In this document: positions 2,487 through 57,139 of the stretch, piece after piece
How positions within the stretch are numbered: the first letter of the stretch is position 1
Layout: every line of letters starts with the position of its first letter
NCBI GenBank assembly: GCA_039028935.1
Contig: JBCCHD010000021.1
Span: 1 to 64,000 of the forward strand
From: Pseudomonadota bacterium
GTDB taxonomy: Bacteria; Pseudomonadota; Gammaproteobacteria; Steroidobacterales; SZUA-146
Length of the DNA stretch: 64,000 nucleotides
Reading direction: 5' to 3'
The notes under the pieces: generated by a model
Told to the model about the DNA's origin: nothing
The model's database searches: none
Seen by the model: only the letters and a program-made list of their open reading frames with translations
Translations under genes and position numbers: made by a program

Positions 2487-4013
2487 ATGAGCGCCGTTCA
2501 AATTGTGTGGTTTAAGCGAGATCTGCGCTCAGCCGATCATGCGGCATTGACGGCGGCGGCCGCGCGCGGCCCGGTGTTGCCGCTGTTTGTCGTTGAGCCC
2601 GACTACTGGCAGCTGCCCGATGTCTCGGCACGCCACTATGCGTTTTTAGGTGAATGCCTGACGTCTTTGCGGAATGATCTGGCGCGGCGAGGACAACCAC
2701 TCATCGTGCGAGTGGGTCCCGTCGAGGTGGTATTGGAGCGGGCGCGCCGACGATTTGGCGCAATCGTACTCTGGTCTCACGAGGAAACCGGCAACGCATG
2801 GACCTACGAGCGCGACAAACGCGTGGCGCACTGGTCCACCTCACACGGTGTTGTTTGGCATGAATGCCGACAAAACGGCGTCGTACGGAGGCTGGGATCA
2901 CGCGATGGCTGGGCGTCCCGTTGGGACGCGTTCATTCAACAACCGATACATGATCCCCCGCATTCTCTGCCACCGGTCTCCGGCATCGAACCGGGAGACC
3001 TGCCCAGCCCATCGGACTTAGAGCTGGCGCCCGACATCTGCCCGGAGCGTCAACGCGGCGGTCGCGAGCACGGCCTTGACTGCCTCCATTCCTTTTTGCA
3101 TGAGCGTGGGCAGTGGTATCGCCAGGCGATGTCCAGTCCGCTTGGCGGTGCTCAGCAATGCTCGCGAATCAGTCCGCACCTTGCCTGGGGCACGCTATCG
3201 ATTCGCGAGGTGTACCACGCGGTGCAAGCTCGACGAGAAGCTCTGAAGTCTATGAACACGAAGGGCTGGCGTCCATCACTCAAGTCGTACACATCGCGGC
3301 TACACTGGCGCGATCACTTCGTTCAAAAACTTGAAGATCAACCCAATATCGAGCGGCGTCATATACATCGAGCCTACGATGCAATGCGCACAGCGGAACC
3401 GCCCGCCACCACGCTTCATGCATGGCGCCACGGCGAAACAGGGCTACCCTTTGTCGACGCCTGCATGCGATCGCTGCAGGCCACCGGTTGGATAAATTTT
3501 CGCATGCGCGCCATGCTCATGGCGGTCGCAAGCTACCACCTGTGGCTCGACTGGCGTAAACCCGGAGAGCACCTCGCACGAGTCTTCACCGACTACGAAC
3601 CCGGTATTCACTGGCCGCAAGTACAAATGCAGTCGGGCACTACCGGTATCAATACCATTCGCATTTACAATCCGATCAAACAGGGCAACGACCAGGATCC
3701 AACCGGTGAATTCGTGCGGACATGGATTCCAGCTCTGGCGAGAGTGCCAGATGCGTTCATCCATGAACCGTGGCGCTGGTCCGAGGCATCATCCCTACTC
3801 GAAAAGACTTACCCGCTCCCCATTGTTGATCATATGGAAGCGGCCAGAGCCGCGCGGCAAAAACTCTGGGCCGTGCGAGACTCCGATCGCTTCAAAGATC
3901 AAGCACACTCGATTGTGCGAAAACACGCGAGCCGAAAGAGCGGACGCGGACGCGCGCGAAACGTCCGGCCAAAGGCGGTGTCACTGCCGCAGCTCAAGCT
4001 CGACTTGGATTGA
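2487..4013 (+). CDS. cryptochrome/DNA photolyase family flavoprotein
   Basis: The N-terminal photolyase alpha/beta domain begins IVWFKRDLRSADHAAL and covers about residues 1-150; it would hold an antenna chromophore. The helical FAD-binding domain covers about 200-480. It shows family landmarks: RLHWRDHF, GLPFVDACMRSLQATGWINFR, DYEPGIHWPQVQMQSG and RIYNPIKQGNDQDP. Such proteins use blue light to repair pyrimidine dimers or act as light sensors. At 508 residues it has normal length. The sequence resembles a bacterial cryptochrome-like subgroup more than E. coli PhrB, so repair versus signalling is not decided. The C-terminus is basic (many Arg/Lys), compatible with DNA binding. It is apparently monocistronic, and no terminator is obvious in the 213 bp before the next gene. 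Confidence 0.85.
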   Translation: MSAVQIVWFKRDLRSADHAALTAAAARGPVLPLFVVEPDYWQLPDVSARHYAFLGECLTSLRNDLARRGQPLIVRVGPVEVVLERARRRFGAIVLWSHEETGNAWTYERDKRVAHWSTSHGVVWHECRQNGVVRRLGSRDGWASRWDAFIQQPIHDPPHSLPPVSGIEPGDLPSPSDLELAPDICPERQRGGREHGLDCLHSFLHERGQWYRQAMSSPLGGAQQCSRISPHLAWGTLSIREVYHAVQARREALKSMNTKGWRPSLKSYTSRLHWRDHFVQKLEDQPNIERRHIHRAYDAMRTAEPPATTLHAWRHGETGLPFVDACMRSLQATGWINFRMRAMLMAVASYHLWLDWRKPGEHLARVFTDYEPGIHWPQVQMQSGTTGINTIRIYNPIKQGNDQDPTGEFVRTWIPALARVPDAFIHEPWRWSEASSLLEKTYPLPIVDHMEAARAARQKLWAVRDSDRFKDQAHSIVRKHASRKSGRGRARNVRPKAVSLPQLKLDLD

Positions 4014-51003: not shown

Positions 51004-51201
51004 TTAGTGGATGCGCGACCAGTGATAAACAGTAACGGTTTGTGACTTTAAGTTGAGATTGTCAGCGATAATTTCAGCGACGTCGTCAAAGTCGAGCAGC
51101 TCGCCAAATTTTTCATCCACCTCTACCACGCGACCCTGTTCGTCAGCGAGATTGGTGGGGTTCGGTGCCACTGTAAAGGAAGCGTAGTATCGTGCTGTCA
51201 T
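51004..51201 (-). CDS. small hypothetical protein
   Basis: 65 residues, acidic, with an alternating strand/helix pattern (MTARYYASFTVAPNPTNLAD, then VVEVDEKFGELLDFDDVAEIIADNLNL, read in two parts) and the ending TVTVYHWSRIH. Not recognised. No strong ribosome binding site, but composition and codon use are protein-like, and the gene sits alone between the receptor and the candidate small RNA. Confidence 0.5.
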   Translation of the reverse strand: MTARYYASFTVAPNPTNLADEQGRVVEVDEKFGELLDFDDVAEIIADNLNLKSQTVTVYHWSRIH

Positions 51202-51390
51202 GTGTTCAGAGTACGTGTTTGTTCATGAACCGTCCGTGAATAGCCGCACAATTCAGCACACTGCTCGGAGGTAAAACCACGGAGGACGATCGTGTAATCA
51301 ACATAACGTGCGTCGACAATCTTTACACTCACGCCCTACAGTTGACGGAATGAAAGGCCGAAACGCGTTAAATAGCAGTGATTTAGGTAT
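51202..51390. promoter_or_regulatory. upstream region of the candidate sigma-54 small RNA
   Basis: No gene. This is where enhancer-binding sites for a sigma-54 activator would be expected. The perfect palindrome GTTCATGAAC lies at 51221-51230, about 195 bp before the predicted start, a plausible distance for an enhancer, but its role is unknown. Confidence 0.3.
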
Positions 51391-51406
51391 TGGCCCGGAA
51401 ATTGCA
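51391..51406 (+). promoter_or_regulatory. sigma-54 (RpoN) promoter
   Basis: TGGCCCGGAAATTGCA fits TGGCACG-N4-TTGCA with a single mismatch and exact -24 GG / -12 GC spacing. The predicted start of transcription is near 51417. No protein-coding gene lies directly downstream on this strand. Confidence 0.7.
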
Positions 51407-51416
51407 AGTTGTCCAT

Positions 51417-51518
51417 CGAAAACAATAGTCCGCGGTATTGTCGTATTGGAACGGTGAATACCGAATAAGCGAAAAAAAGCAACAAATCAAACCCCACGCC
51501 TGGTGGGGTTTTTTTTTT
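51417..51518 (+). ncRNA. candidate sigma-54-dependent small RNA (~100 nt)
   Basis: It is bounded by a sigma-54 promoter and a rho-independent terminator with no open frame between them. The transcript would hold a first hairpin (CGGTATT 51433-51439 / AATACCG 51457-51463). An unpaired A-rich stretch follows (GCGAAAAAAAGCAACAAATC), suitable for the distal face of Hfq, and then the terminator hairpin. RpoN-controlled small RNAs are known, for example CrcZ, GlmY and Qrr, but the sequence does not match any I can recall. Confidence 0.6.
51490..51518 (+). terminator. rho-independent terminator of the candidate small RNA
   Basis: AACCCCAC / GTGGGGTT stem (51490-51510) with a short GCCTG loop and a T10 run. 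Its orientation requires a plus-strand transcript, although the flanking genes are both on the minus strand. Confidence 0.92.
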
Positions 51519-51601
51519 GCGTTTAACGGCTGAGCCTGCGCCGATCTAATCCAAGGATGATGGAGGACGAAGCCGAAGAGCGGCTATTCGGTGTATCGCG
51601 G

Positions 51602-53872
51602 CTAACTGCTCACCTGGAGATGTACGACCGTGCTTTCGCCCGTATCGCCCTCCTGATGCCGATGTTGATGAGCAAGACCCTCTGTGAATGTCGCCAGCTG
51701 TTCCATTAGCGGAGCCGGTTTCCCAAGATGAAAGCCCTGAGCGTAGTTCACGCCAATTTCTTCGAGTTTCTCAACGATGGCTTCGTTTTCGACAAACTCA
51801 GCGATCGTGTGCAGTCCCATCTCTTTGCCAATTTGGTGAATAGCACTCACCATCGATGCCGACACGCGATCGCTCTCAATTTCCTTCACAAACGCACCGT
51901 CGATCTTAAGATAGTCGACCGGCAACGTCTTGAGGTAGGCAAACGAACTCAACCCTGTACCAAAATCATCCAGCGAGAAACGGAAGCCTTGGTACTTTAG
52001 TTGCTCCATAAAGGTTGTGACCTTACGAATATTCGTCACCGCCGCAGTCTCGGTAATCTCAAAGCAAATACATTTGGGGTCAATCCCGGTTCGAGCGACC
52101 TCCTCTTCGATAAACTTCACAAAGTTGCCATCGCTGATAGTCTGACCGGACAGATTGATCGCCCAGGTGCTTTCGTTAAGCAGTCGCGAAGGCAAATTGG
52201 ACATCAGCGTTTTCAGTGTGTTGCGTACCACCCAACGATCAATAGCTGGCATGAGGTTATAGCGCTCAGCGGCGCCGACAAACTCAGCCGGACTCAATAA
52301 CCCTTCTTCCTCATCGGCTAGCCGGATGAGAATCTCGGTGTGCTTTTTGCCCTTGTCTTGACCAATCGCGTGAATCGGCTGACCGAACAACTGGAACTGA
52401 TCTTCGCGCAGCGCTGTGTGCAAGCGCGCCAGCCAGTGAATCTGCGCCTGACGCTTAATGAGCATCGTGTTGTCATCCTGATACACCTGCAGTCGGTCCC
52501 GACCAAGATCTTTGGCGGCTGAACACGCCAGTTCGGCAAAGCTCAACACGCTAATAATGTTCTTTGTATCCACTTCCATCGGTGCCAGACCAATACTCAC
52601 GGTGACCGGATACCGCTTGTTGTCCCAGCTGAATTCGATGGCCGCCACTTCGCGGCGAATCGTTTCGGCAATCTCCATGCTCTCATCCATATCGCGATCG
52701 GCCAACAACGCGCCAAACTCGCCGCCGCCTAGCCGGGCCACCACGTCGTCGTCGCCGAGATGGTCGCGGACTACGCTCGCCACACGTTTGATGAGTTCGT
52801 CACCCGCCTGGTGGCCACTGGAATCATTCACGGCGTGTAGTCGATCAACATTGATATTGAGTACGCAGTGCTCGCGTTGCTTGTAGCGAACGACATAGAG
52901 CGCCGTTTCGAGATGGTATTCGAACCCGTTGCGCGTCATCATGCCGGTCAGTGTGTCGTAATTAACCTGGATAATTCGGGACGCTTTGTGCGCCATCAGC
53001 CCAATGAGTTTGTTGTCGCTGCCTGTGAAGTCTTCGGATTCAAGCGGATTGGCCAGCAAAATAATGCCGATGGTTTCATTGTTCTCGTCGAAGATCGGCG
53101 CCACCAACATTTTGCAATCAAGGCCGCCAAAAACATGGCGAAATTCAACGCCGCCGTTATGGATCATTGGGGTTTTGCGATAGGAGACCTGGTCGTATAC
53201 CTCCGTTTTAGCTACAGCAAGAACCTGTTCGTAATCCAGCTCACTGCTTCGATAAACGTGGGAGATCACGACCTTGCGTTCGGCCATTACTACCATACCC
53301 AATGAAGCTTCGGAGTATTCGGTCGTTCGTCTGACCAAATTGCGCATGGCATCCTGCCCTTCATCAAAGTACTTCACGTTGTCTTGCGTATTGTAGATGA
53401 GGTTGAGTTCTTCATAGCGCTGAAGCAGCTCGTCACCCATTGTGTCGAGCTCGTTTTGCTTCGCAACATCAACCGATAACACATTCGTGATGCGATGAAT
53501 CGAAGTCGACAGTGAGTTGTAATCCAGATCCTGGTTACTGTTTTCAACCAATACGAACAAACCGGCCATCGGCGTCTTGGCAGCGTCGCATATACTCGTG
53601 ATGTAGGCCGATGTGTCGTCCGAGACAGTGCAGCGGCGAATGCCACGACCCGTTTGTGTCCAGTCCGGAATAGCGTGATTGAGCGCTGTCAGCGCCGGTG
53701 CATACGCGTTTTGAGAATTTTGTGCCAGAGCCCAAACGCGGTTGCCCTCCAGGTCGCACACCACGACAGCCAGCGCGCCTTTTAGTCCTGCACGCACCAG
53801 CCACCCATATTTTGAGTAGTCGATGGCGCGGAGCGCCTGACCAAACTGACGCTGCTTCTTGGTTAACGTCAT
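51602..53872 (-). CDS. GAF-GGDEF-EAL cyclic-di-GMP protein with degenerate GGDEF motif
   Basis: 756 residues. A GAF-like sensor region lies at about 130-300, GGDEF at about 310-470 and EAL at about 480-740. The GGDEF active site reads GGGEF (residues 382-386), an Asp-to-Gly change that should abolish cyclase activity. The EAL domain reads EIL in place of EAL but keeps its glutamate, FEITE, DDFGTG, LKIDG, IAEFVE and QGFHLGKP. Phosphodiesterase activity is therefore plausible, with the GGDEF domain perhaps regulatory through GTP binding. The start overlaps the stop of the upstream receiver gene by 1 bp (TGATG), so the two form one signalling unit. Confidence 0.88.
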   Translation of the reverse strand: MTLTKKQRQFGQALRAIDYSKYGWLVRAGLKGALAVVVCDLEGNRVWALAQNSQNAYAPALTALNHAIPDWTQTGRGIRRCTVSDDTSAYITSICDAAKTPMAGLFVLVENSNQDLDYNSLSTSIHRITNVLSVDVAKQNELDTMGDELLQRYEELNLIYNTQDNVKYFDEGQDAMRNLVRRTTEYSEASLGMVVMAERKVVISHVYRSSELDYEQVLAVAKTEVYDQVSYRKTPMIHNGGVEFRHVFGGLDCKMLVAPIFDENNETIGIILLANPLESEDFTGSDNKLIGLMAHKASRIIQVNYDTLTGMMTRNGFEYHLETALYVVRYKQREHCVLNINVDRLHAVNDSSGHQAGDELIKRVASVVRDHLGDDDVVARLGGGEFGALLADRDMDESMEIAETIRREVAAIEFSWDNKRYPVTVSIGLAPMEVDTKNIISVLSFAELACSAAKDLGRDRLQVYQDDNTMLIKRQAQIHWLARLHTALREDQFQLFGQPIHAIGQDKGKKHTEILIRLADEEEGLLSPAEFVGAAERYNLMPAIDRWVVRNTLKTLMSNLPSRLLNESTWAINLSGQTISDGNFVKFIEEEVARTGIDPKCICFEITETAAVTNIRKVTTFMEQLKYQGFRFSLDDFGTGLSSFAYLKTLPVDYLKIDGAFVKEIESDRVSASMVSAIHQIGKEMGLHTIAEFVENEAIVEKLEEIGVNYAQGFHLGKPAPLMEQLATFTEGLAHQHRHQEGDTGESTVVHLQVSS

Positions 53873-54261
53873 CAGGCCGCCTGTTCCTGATTTTTTTCAA
53901 TGTACTCAATAATTGCGCGTAGACTGATCGGTTTATCGACCATACGAAAATTGGCAAACCAATGACTCCAGCGTGTGTACATATCCTGCGCGGAATCGGT
54001 CATAACGAGCACCGGAAATACCCGATCAGAATGCTCAGTCTGAAGTCGTCGACAAAACTCTTCGCCGCTCATCGGATACAAATCCGTGCTGACGAGGACA
54101 TAGTCAGGCGCCTGCTCTTTTATTTGCTCGAGCGCGCGTTCGGGTAAAGCAAAATGGTGTACTTCAAAACCAGCGCGCTTCAGGCCACGGCAAATGATCC
54201 GGGCAAGAAAACTCTCCTGCTCGATCACAAAAAGTATGGGGGCGCTGTTGGTCGTTGTCAT
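53872..54261 (-). CDS. single-domain response regulator (receiver)
   Basis: 129 residues from the ATG at 54261. The receiver fold keeps the phospho-acceptor Asp60 (VLVSTDLYPMSG), Thr88 and Lys110 (VDKPIS). The acidic pair after the first strand is Glu14-Gln15, rather than Asp-Asp. There is no output domain, so it probably acts on the cotranslated GGDEF-EAL protein. No histidine kinase is adjacent. An upstream in-frame TTG (54276) is a weaker start. Confidence 0.8.
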   Translation of the reverse strand: MTTTNSAPILFVIEQESFLARIICRGLKRAGFEVHHFALPERALEQIKEQAPDYVLVSTDLYPMSGEEFCRRLQTEHSDRVFPVLVMTDSAQDMYTRWSHWFANFRMVDKPISLRAIIEYIEKNQEQAA

Positions 54262-54498
54262 TCGTATGCGAACCAAATCAATCTAGGCAGTAAAAAGTAC
54301 CAGCGCATGGGCTTTTTCGGCGTGATCGGGTTCTCAAACGGCCGACAAGGGTTTGGAATCATTCGGCCGATTTATGTCAAATAATATCGGCACCGCCGTG
54401 GTCAGACCGGCCGACCTGCACCGCGCATTCGACACACAGGAATGATGGCCCGGCGTGCTTAACACCGCCACTCAAGCCGAGCGAATCAACCAGATAGA

Positions 54499-56091
54499 TT
54501 ACATAAGGCCGCGGGTGAAATAGTCGGCCAGATAGTCATCGAATGACAGGGTGTCTGCCGCTCGCACTTCTTCGGCCTTGGCGAGGGATTCGCGTGCCAA
54601 TTCCGCTAAATTCTCAGCCGTTTCGGGGTGGGTGAACTCGGCCTCTTCAAATTCCTTAGCGACCATCTGAGCCCGCGCCAAACCAAATTCGTTATACGTC
54701 AACGAACCCTTACTGAGTGCCTCGAGCACGCGGGCTGACGGAGCCATTCTGACGTCCTCGATTACCGCTTGCTGATGGCGAACGGCTTTTGCATAGCGAT
54801 TATCGGCAGACCCTTCGTCAAGAATTCGAGCCAACGTGACGAGCTGATCACATACTTGGCTGGCCCAGTCTGACAGTGCGATGTTGCGGCCGTCACGACA
54901 CAATTCGAGCCCTGGTTTGCGACCGTAAGCGGCCACCGCGTTGTCATTGTTGGCGATATCGACCTGCTCCGAGGCACTGATCGCCGGACTACTCGTAAAC
55001 ACACAGTGCAACAATAGGCACTCGACAAAATCGAGCTCGATCTGATTAACTCCCACCGCACTGAATGGATCGAGATCCAACGCCCGAATCTCCACATACT
55101 CCACACCACGCCGGCGCAAGGCAGCGGTGGGTTCTTCACCACTTTTGGCCACGCGCTTAGGCCTCACAACGCTGTAATATTCGTTGGCAATCTGCAGGAT
55201 GTTGGTCGAAAGCTGAATGCGCTTATCACCATCAAACAATCCTCGTTGCTCGTAATCGGGATAGGGTGTGGAAATGGCGCGGGTCAATCCGGCCACGTAT
55301 TCATCAAGACTGTTCACGGAGATATTCAGACTAGCCTGGGCATGGTTGTTGTACCCGATATCGCTCATGCGCAGCGACGTCGCGTACTCTCCGGCCGCCG
55401 TGTTGCCTGGAAAGTCCGCCAGCCCGGTTTCCGCACCTTGAAAAAATGACTTGCAGACTGCTGGTGAGCTGCCAAACAAGTACAATATCAACCACGATAA
55501 GCGTCGGAAATTCCGAATCAACGCAAAGTAGCCCGCCGACTGAAAATTCTGTGATGTCTGGCTCGAGCAAATATCGCTGCCCACTAGCGGACAGAGCGCA
55601 TCCCAAACGGGTTTAGGCAGCGAGTAGTTAAAATGCACACCGGAAATGGTTTGCATAATTCGTCCATAGCGGTGCCCTAACCCACGACGATAAATGGTCT
55701 TCATGCGGCCCACGTTCGAGTCCCCGTAGCGCGCCAGCGGCACATCGCTGTGACGCGAAAACCCGCAAGGCATGCTGCACGGCCAAAGCGTTTCACCCGG
55801 TATATGACGGTAGGTGTAGCGATGCAGATCGTACAGAAAGCGAATTGCCTCCTCGTTAGTGGGCACGGCCGGCGTCACAAACTCAAGCAGGCTCTCGGCA
55901 TAGTCGGTCGTTATAAAGGGGTGCGTCAGCGCCGCGCCCAACGCCGTCGGGTGCGGCGTTTGAGAGAGCGCGCCCGAGAGCGCATCAACGCGTAGCGATT
56001 CCTTCTCGACACCACGCTTGCCCTGCTGAATGATCGTGGGGCCATGCCGGTCAATCAGTCGAAAAAGCAGGTCATTAGGAATCTGATACAT
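54499..56091 (-). CDS. gshA: glutamate-cysteine ligase, gamma-proteobacterial type
   Basis: 530 residues, the normal size for this class. Landmarks are RGVEKESLRVD, ITTDYAESLLEFVTP, YGRIMQTISGVHFNYS, DIGYNNHAQASLNISVNSL and VEYVEIRALDLDPFSAVGV. It makes gamma-glutamylcysteine from glutamate, cysteine and ATP, the first step of glutathione synthesis. It is monocistronic here; gshB is not in the window. The divergent gene on the right is a degenerate GGDEF protein. Confidence 0.96.
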   Translation of the reverse strand: MYQIPNDLLFRLIDRHGPTIIQQGKRGVEKESLRVDALSGALSQTPHPTALGAALTHPFITTDYAESLLEFVTPAVPTNEEAIRFLYDLHRYTYRHIPGETLWPCSMPCGFSRHSDVPLARYGDSNVGRMKTIYRRGLGHRYGRIMQTISGVHFNYSLPKPVWDALCPLVGSDICSSQTSQNFQSAGYFALIRNFRRLSWLILYLFGSSPAVCKSFFQGAETGLADFPGNTAAGEYATSLRMSDIGYNNHAQASLNISVNSLDEYVAGLTRAISTPYPDYEQRGLFDGDKRIQLSTNILQIANEYYSVVRPKRVAKSGEEPTAALRRRGVEYVEIRALDLDPFSAVGVNQIELDFVECLLLHCVFTSSPAISASEQVDIANNDNAVAAYGRKPGLELCRDGRNIALSDWASQVCDQLVTLARILDEGSADNRYAKAVRHQQAVIEDVRMAPSARVLEALSKGSLTYNEFGLARAQMVAKEFEEAEFTHPETAENLAELARESLAKAEEVRAADTLSFDDYLADYFTRGLM

Positions 56092-56221
56092 CGATATACC
56101 TTGTGATCAGAACGAGCTCGGCGATGGGCTTTCTGCCGCTTGCCACGGCTCAGAAATGTACGTCAATTGCGCAAAAACCTTGAACCAGGTCTCTGTTTAT
56201 AGAGGGTTTTCAGATTATGGT

Positions 56222-57139
56222 ATGAGTCTACTCGATTTTCGCTTCGGACGTACAACTGTGATCGCTTCCTTCCTCCGACCTGCCGTGCTCGTTTTGGCCG
56301 TTGCCGTGTCACCGGCGGCATCAGCCGCTGATCCCACGTTGCTCACCTACGCCGCCCCCGGCTTTATTTTGGCTGCTGTTGCGCTCGTGGGTTGGTTGGT
56401 CGCCAATGGCCGTCTTAGGACCAGCCAGGATCAGCACAACGACATGTCTACCCGTCTGGCCGCGAGCGAAAAAACCGTGGCGCAACTCCAGGCCATTCGC
56501 GCTGAGCTAACCGAAAACCTCAATATGGCCAAGGCCGAGTCGGTGGCGAACGACCAGCGCCGACGGGAGGTGTCGAATATGCTGGCTGCGCTACGCGCTC
56601 AGGTGGAGAAGGTGGCGCGTGTTGACGGGCTGACAGGCGTCGCCAACCGTCAACAGTTTGATATCAGCCTGACCGACGAGATTAAGCGCTGCGTCCGCGA
56701 GCACAAAGACATCAGCTTATTGCTCGTGGAAGTGGATAGTTTTGTGGACTTTCGCGATATCAGCGGCGAAGAGAAATCGGAATTCGCGTTGCAGCGAATC
56801 GCGTCATCAATCTCCGAATCCTTTCGGCGAGCCGGTGACCTGGTGGCTCGCATTGGTGAATTTAAGTTTGCGGTGCTTTTGCCAGGCGCTAACAACGACA
56901 CGGCCGCACGATTTGCCGAAAAAATGCGCAAGTCGATTTACGCTGAAGCCATTCCGTTTCCGCAGTCAGAAATCGCCGATCGTATTACGGTCAGTGTCGG
57001 GCTTGCCTCGTTGCCTCCGGTACGACTGCACAAACCGCAGATAGCCATCGGTATCGCTGAAAACGCGTTACGCGAAGCGCAGAACAACGGTCACAACCAA
57101 GTCGCGAGTGGCGATGAATCGGTCATGCACGCCGTATAA
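56222..57139 (+). CDS. membrane-bound GGDEF-domain protein with degenerate active site
   Basis: 305 residues from the ATG at 56222; a longer frame starts at 56156. It has a hydrophobic N-terminus (signal-like, ~20-37), a second hydrophobic segment (YAAPGFILAAVALVGWLVANG), then a coiled coil (~65-125). The GGDEF domain begins RVDGLTGVANRQQFD. The active site reads GEFKF (residues 212-216) where GGDEF is expected, so cyclase activity is unlikely. It may act as a c-di-GMP or GTP sensor or be vestigial. The divergent neighbour is gshA. Confidence 0.78.
   Translation: MSLLDFRFGRTTVIASFLRPAVLVLAVAVSPAASAADPTLLTYAAPGFILAAVALVGWLVANGRLRTSQDQHNDMSTRLAASEKTVAQLQAIRAELTENLNMAKAESVANDQRRREVSNMLAALRAQVEKVARVDGLTGVANRQQFDISLTDEIKRCVREHKDISLLLVEVDSFVDFRDISGEEKSEFALQRIASSISESFRRAGDLVARIGEFKFAVLLPGANNDTAARFAEKMRKSIYAEAIPFPQSEIADRITVSVGLASLPPVRLHKPQIAIGIAENALREAQNNGHNQVASGDESVMHAV

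Follow-up and report, generated by a model that had tools for sequence, protein, structure and literature searches.

Among environmental Gram-negative bacteria, the PEP-CTERM/exosortase system is widely distributed, and it has been tied to floc formation. To our knowledge, little has been established about the signal that PrsK receives or about how far control by PrsR extends. Among small RNAs, GlmY and Qrr are transcribed with sigma-54, are switched by two-component systems and are similar in size to, or somewhat larger than, the RNA described here. In the regulon described by Haft et al. (2006), PrsK, PrsR and PrsT co-occur with a motif 1/motif 2 element, in which motif 1 ends in TTTACA, the spacer is 62.8 +/- 10.6 and motif 2 is of the sigma-54 type (PMC1569441). 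The PEP-CTERM gene pepA of Aquincola is RpoN-dependent (PMC9850573), and a Desulfovibrio study reports that DAP-chip enriched the predicted PEP-CTERM targets of the regulator DVUA0057 (PMC3333781).

The locus analysed here resembles the PrsK/PrsR-sigma54 regulon (PMC1569441, PMC9850573) in a site ending in TTTACA, the spacer, the sigma-54 promoter and the presence of PrsK, PrsR and exosortase A, whereas the published targets are protein genes and the output in the window (the whole stretch of 64,000 nucleotides that was analysed) is a predicted non-coding RNA. With CrcZ/CrcY of Pseudomonas, which depend on CbrB and sigma-54, it shares a sigma-54 promoter, a remote activator, an intergenic position, an A-rich stretch and a strong terminator; it differs in its length of about 100 nt, compared with 398 model positions, in its activator site, in having a single A-rich stretch and in not lying next to cbrB. 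In contrast to GlmY and Qrr, its regulator is probably of a different type. Desulfovibrio vulgaris DVU0679/Dv_sRNA2 is likewise a two-component regulator with an sRNA target, but the regulator is another one, and the available part of that report does not link DVUA0057 to an sRNA (PMC3333781). The sequence-only reading had seen a likeness to CrcZ, GlmY or Qrr in architecture and not in sequence, in agreement with the Rfam search, in which no family reached its gathering score in the window and only chance matches appeared in 51200-51700 at an E value of 10. Membership in CrcZ/CrcY (RF01675) was rejected, since there was neither a covariance-model match nor CbrB subsites (consensus TGTTAC/GTAACA, PMC6296734) in 51291-51390, and for GlmY and Qrr no Rfam match at a useful score was obtained.

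Promoter, transcript and terminator

The unit described by the sequence-only reading, namely a near-consensus promoter and a strong terminator in the same orientation, without a reading frame between them and with both flanking genes on the opposite strand, was confirmed. The predicted sigma-54 -24/-12 promoter TTGGCCCGGAAATTGCA is located at 51390-51406 (+) and has one mismatch to TGGCACG-N4-TTGCW. Taken by itself the promoter word says little, because TGGCNCG-N4-TTGCW matches the genome (4.1 Mb) 10 times and the reversed control 8 times; the call rises above chance because the promoter is conserved in the relatives. At 13 nt past the C of the -12 element, conservation restarts with a G in all three species of the genus, and this is the position at which a sigma-54 start would be expected. 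Based on this restart and on the absence of a shared ORF, a small RNA of about 100 nt is predicted to extend from G51418 to the U tract (51418-51518, +).

The 5′-end GAAAACAAYAGUCCG (51418-51432, +) has one variable position in the three species and is a candidate base-pairing region; structure prediction leaves these first 15 nt unpaired in the copies from the window genome (G000) and G002, and pairs them partly in that from G001. A bulged hairpin with the apical loop AUUGGA (51445-51450) follows at 51433-51463 (+) in the minimum free energy folds, and each of the three species can form its nine modelled pairs, which barely vary, with one G-U change. The 5′ hairpin of the earlier reading is present, but the highly conserved and mostly single-stranded first 15 nt lie ahead of it. 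The A-rich stretch noted before, a candidate Hfq site that carries AANAANAA repeats in two relatives, was located at 51464-51488 (+). It leads into an intrinsic terminator at 51489-51518 (+), which consists of a 9-bp stem (51489-51511) and a T run to 51518 and shows one compensatory change, helix covariation being judged from three sequences only. The three copies fold moderately better than shuffled sequences (z-scores of -2.3, -2.6 and -1.9).

The earlier proposal was to stand or fall with whether close relatives keep the promoter and the terminator. The region between and including them is retained, with the same neighbouring genes, in both other genomes of the genus, which are metagenome-assembled, and this supports a sigma-54-dependent sRNA as the best reading. 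Among 59 relatives the block was present in these two genus members only, with 81% and 73% identity (BLAST), and the matches extend no further than the block itself (query 20-145 and 20-146 of 170). The fraction of columns invariant in three species is 15% before the activator site described below, 71% in that site, 19% in the spacer to the promoter, 88% in the promoter, 18% between the -12 element and the predicted +1, 85% in the 5′ part of the RNA and the hairpin, 58% in the A-rich linker, 70% in the terminator and 19% downstream. Such a pattern of blocks is the expected trace of a transcribed RNA gene and is difficult to account for in another way.

The gene order TonB receptor, 65-aa ORF, RNA, GGDEF-EAL gene, receiver protein and glutamate-cysteine ligase is kept in the three species. 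Both flanking genes, the GGDEF-EAL gene (51602-53872) and the 65-aa ORF (51004-51201), are on the minus strand. The intergenic region previously regarded as apparently empty contains no shared ORF within the RNA, but the 65-aa ORF upstream went unmentioned in the sequence-only reading. This unannotated ORF is 91% and 74% identical in the sister species, and a Pfam search with it was without match. On the other side, 51602-57139 forms a conserved block of a GGDEF-EAL gene, a receiver-domain protein, glutamate-cysteine ligase and a second GGDEF protein.

Beyond the genus, no homologues of the RNA were found with a covariance model in 396 genomes of the order and 369 of the class under strict filters that may miss distant ones. 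A DNA-pattern scan of GTDB contigs returned 15 matches, two of which were real and belonged to genus genomes (isolates SZUA-146 and SS_bin_79); the other 13 were discarded for want of a covariance-model match. No second copy was detected in the three genus genomes, where weaker covariance-model matches were terminators or chance matches.

The upstream activator site and the PEP-CTERM regulon

The conserved word at 51312-51327 resembled one ahead of a PEP-CTERM gene (L053) that had come up as a weak model match, and this led to the link with the PEP-CTERM regulon. The predicted PrsR activator site GTCGACAATCTTTACA at 51312-51327 (+) had been overlooked in the sequence-only reading; judged by its letters it is of the PrsR/PEP-CTERM type, as it ends in TTTACA and agrees with the 'motif 1' for PrsR that has been published for PEP-CTERM genes. 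The TGG of the -24 element lies 63 bp downstream of it, and the spacer between site and promoter is 63, 63 and 62 in the three species, equal to the published mean of 62.8 and to the main mode of 143 sites collected across the order. With a matrix built on 80 sites that precede PEP-CTERM genes in other genomes, the site scored 24.9, compared with a median of 22.5 for those sites; approximately 0.04% of the test positions in the window score as high, a share that the site itself would produce when read from neighbouring positions.

The pattern GTC-N7-TTTACA-N45-75-TGG-N8-TTGC was run on the three genus genomes and on a reversed control. Nine matches were obtained in the genomes and none in the control, namely the three RNA loci, five PEP-CTERM genes (above the TIGR02595 cut-off) and one PagP-like gene. 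The pattern had been drawn from the RNA loci and one PEP-CTERM site, so that the other five sites are independent. The PagP-like gene (lipid A palmitoyltransferase; L072:1501-2143, + strand, in G002) is a non-PEP-CTERM gene behind the same site. PrsK, PrsR, a PrsT-like protein, an EpsB-type sugar transferase and exosortase A (XrtA) are encoded at one locus of the window genome, in which TIGR02916, TIGR02915 and TIGR03109 (PrsK, PrsR, exosortase) are above cut-off. PrsR is also present in G001 and was not found in the G002 draft, which is 84% complete.

When the pattern was tightened slightly, 98 of the 396 genomes of the order still contained it, with one match in the reversed control. PrsR was present in 79 of the 98 motif-bearing genomes compared with 118 of the 298 others, counts that are uncorrected for relatedness. 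PEP-CTERM-like genes, assigned by our own sequence rule and not by a curated model, follow 85 of the 143 distinct sites (L071-L209). Spacers cluster at 50-54, 60-67 and 73-74, about 11 bp apart, the upper edge of the distribution being cut off by the pattern limits. Since these classes are approximately one helical turn apart, they point to helical phasing, with PrsR on one face of the DNA.

Proposed function and alternatives

The locus is likely to be a gene for a regulatory RNA of about 100 nt in the PrsK/PrsR-sigma54 regulon, co-expressed with exosortase substrates and probably bound by Hfq. We infer transcription from PrsR-sigma54, dependence on PrsR, Hfq binding and the following mode of action. 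The kinase PrsK would activate PrsR, which would then bind 51312-51327 and remodel sigma54-RNA polymerase at 51390-51406, through a control element that these genomes also have ahead of PEP-CTERM genes, which encode exosortase substrates. The RNA would run from about G51418 to the terminator, Hfq would probably bind it via the A-rich linker and the U tail, and the conserved single-stranded 5′-end and/or the hairpin loop would regulate mRNAs while the exopolysaccharide/PEP-CTERM programme is on. The sigma-54 sRNA plan (CrcZ, GlmY, Qrr) and the PrsR regulon for proteins were known already, and the new element is the RNA output. This output looks like an unrecognised RNA arm of the PEP-CTERM regulon; no report of an sRNA in this regulon was found in the open-access literature, most subscription papers being outside the scope of the search. 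If true, the switch would act post-transcriptionally too, for example, as a guess, on competing motility or c-di-GMP programmes. The RNA locus would offer a short testable reporter for PrsR activity.

An Hfq gene was found in G000 and G002, and a search of the G001 draft did not find one. In the A-rich linker, AANAANAA repeats exceed shuffles in two relatives (p = 0.008 and 0.014) and not in the window copy. Base pairing may involve the 5′-end GAAAACAAYAGUCCG and the loop AUUGGA, which among the accessible parts are conserved best. A search for targets of the 5′-end, limited to 115 ORF starts from the window, the EPS locus and the PEP-CTERM loci, was negative and uninformative (mean of -9.3 kcal/mol compared with -10.0 kcal/mol for shuffled seeds).

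The main mechanistic rival keeps the same control and regards the RNA as a sponge for Hfq (or Hfq-Crc) like CrcZ, without base pairing. The AAN repeats in the linker of two relatives would suit a sponge, as would the long AAN-rich RNAs that other families have behind a similar site; yet each RNA has one short A-rich stretch, and conservation is strongest in the 5′-end and hairpin and not in the linker. We regard a sponge as rather unlikely. Less probable still is an sRNA under another NtrC-type activator (CbrB-, NtrC- or GlrR-like) with a likeness to the PrsR site by chance. In its favour, the sigma-54 activator domain is matched at least 13 times in the genome, about ten times strongly, and 19 motif-bearing genomes, some of which are incomplete drafts, lack PrsR above cut-off. 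Against this, the PEP-CTERM genes of the same genomes have the same site and spacing, and the CbrB subsites are absent upstream.

A regulatory RNA under PrsR control is also preferred over a cis-acting element that would serve the converging GGDEF-EAL mRNA (stop at 51602) as an antisense RNA or as its terminator. All three species have the same GGDEF-EAL neighbour, pointing towards the RNA gene, but the sequence between the two is unconserved, and a terminator needs no sigma-54 promoter with a remote activator site, so that we regard a cis-acting role as very improbable. Weakest of all, and rejected, is a promoter that drives a short peptide: protein genes follow most sites of a similar type and ENNSPRY can be read in one frame of the conserved 5′ part in all three species, but the possible start codons for it coincide with the predicted +1 or precede it, an insertion in G002 shifts the frame while the bases are still conserved, and no ORF with a start and frame common to the three species was found between the predicted +1 and the terminator.

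Other non-coding RNAs behind similar sites

As judged by reading the sequences, non-coding DNA follows approximately 26 of the 143 sites, in most cases with a terminator at its end; three of these are the loci of the RNA described above. The other RNAs were found via the pattern and read quickly, and their assignments are provisional. Behind a similar activator site and sigma-54 promoter, family II (L116, L117), family III (L191, L196, L200), family IV (L106, L107, L108) and the single RNAs L090, L101 and L110 were distinguished. Additionally, one genus contains two structured families: family V in seven genomes (L160, L161, L164, L168, L170, L172, L174), with 14 pairs that have changes on both sides, and family VI in five genomes (L159, L163, L165, L166, L171), which is highly conserved, about 230 nt long and without a U tract.

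Families II to IV and the single RNAs are unrelated in sequence to the window RNA. The AANAANAA repeats exceed shuffles in families II and IV, in L090, L101 and L110 and in both tested copies of family III, and none were found in family V. Because similar sites across the order precede other, unrelated non-coding RNAs, the regulon may have acquired an RNA arm recurrently. We are equally inclined to accept and to doubt the wider proposal that PrsK/PrsR-sigma54 generally has such an arm, made up in many lineages of the order of lineage-specific, mostly (AAN)n-rich RNAs of the Hfq type behind the activator site and promoter that exosortase substrates have, with the window RNA as the form of one genus. 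None of the other RNAs reached an Rfam gathering score, and L191 matched the CrcZ model weakly (27.5 bits compared with 95). Downstream in the locus of L090, at 2687-2858 (+), a cobalamin riboswitch unrelated to the RNA was identified with 61.9 bits.
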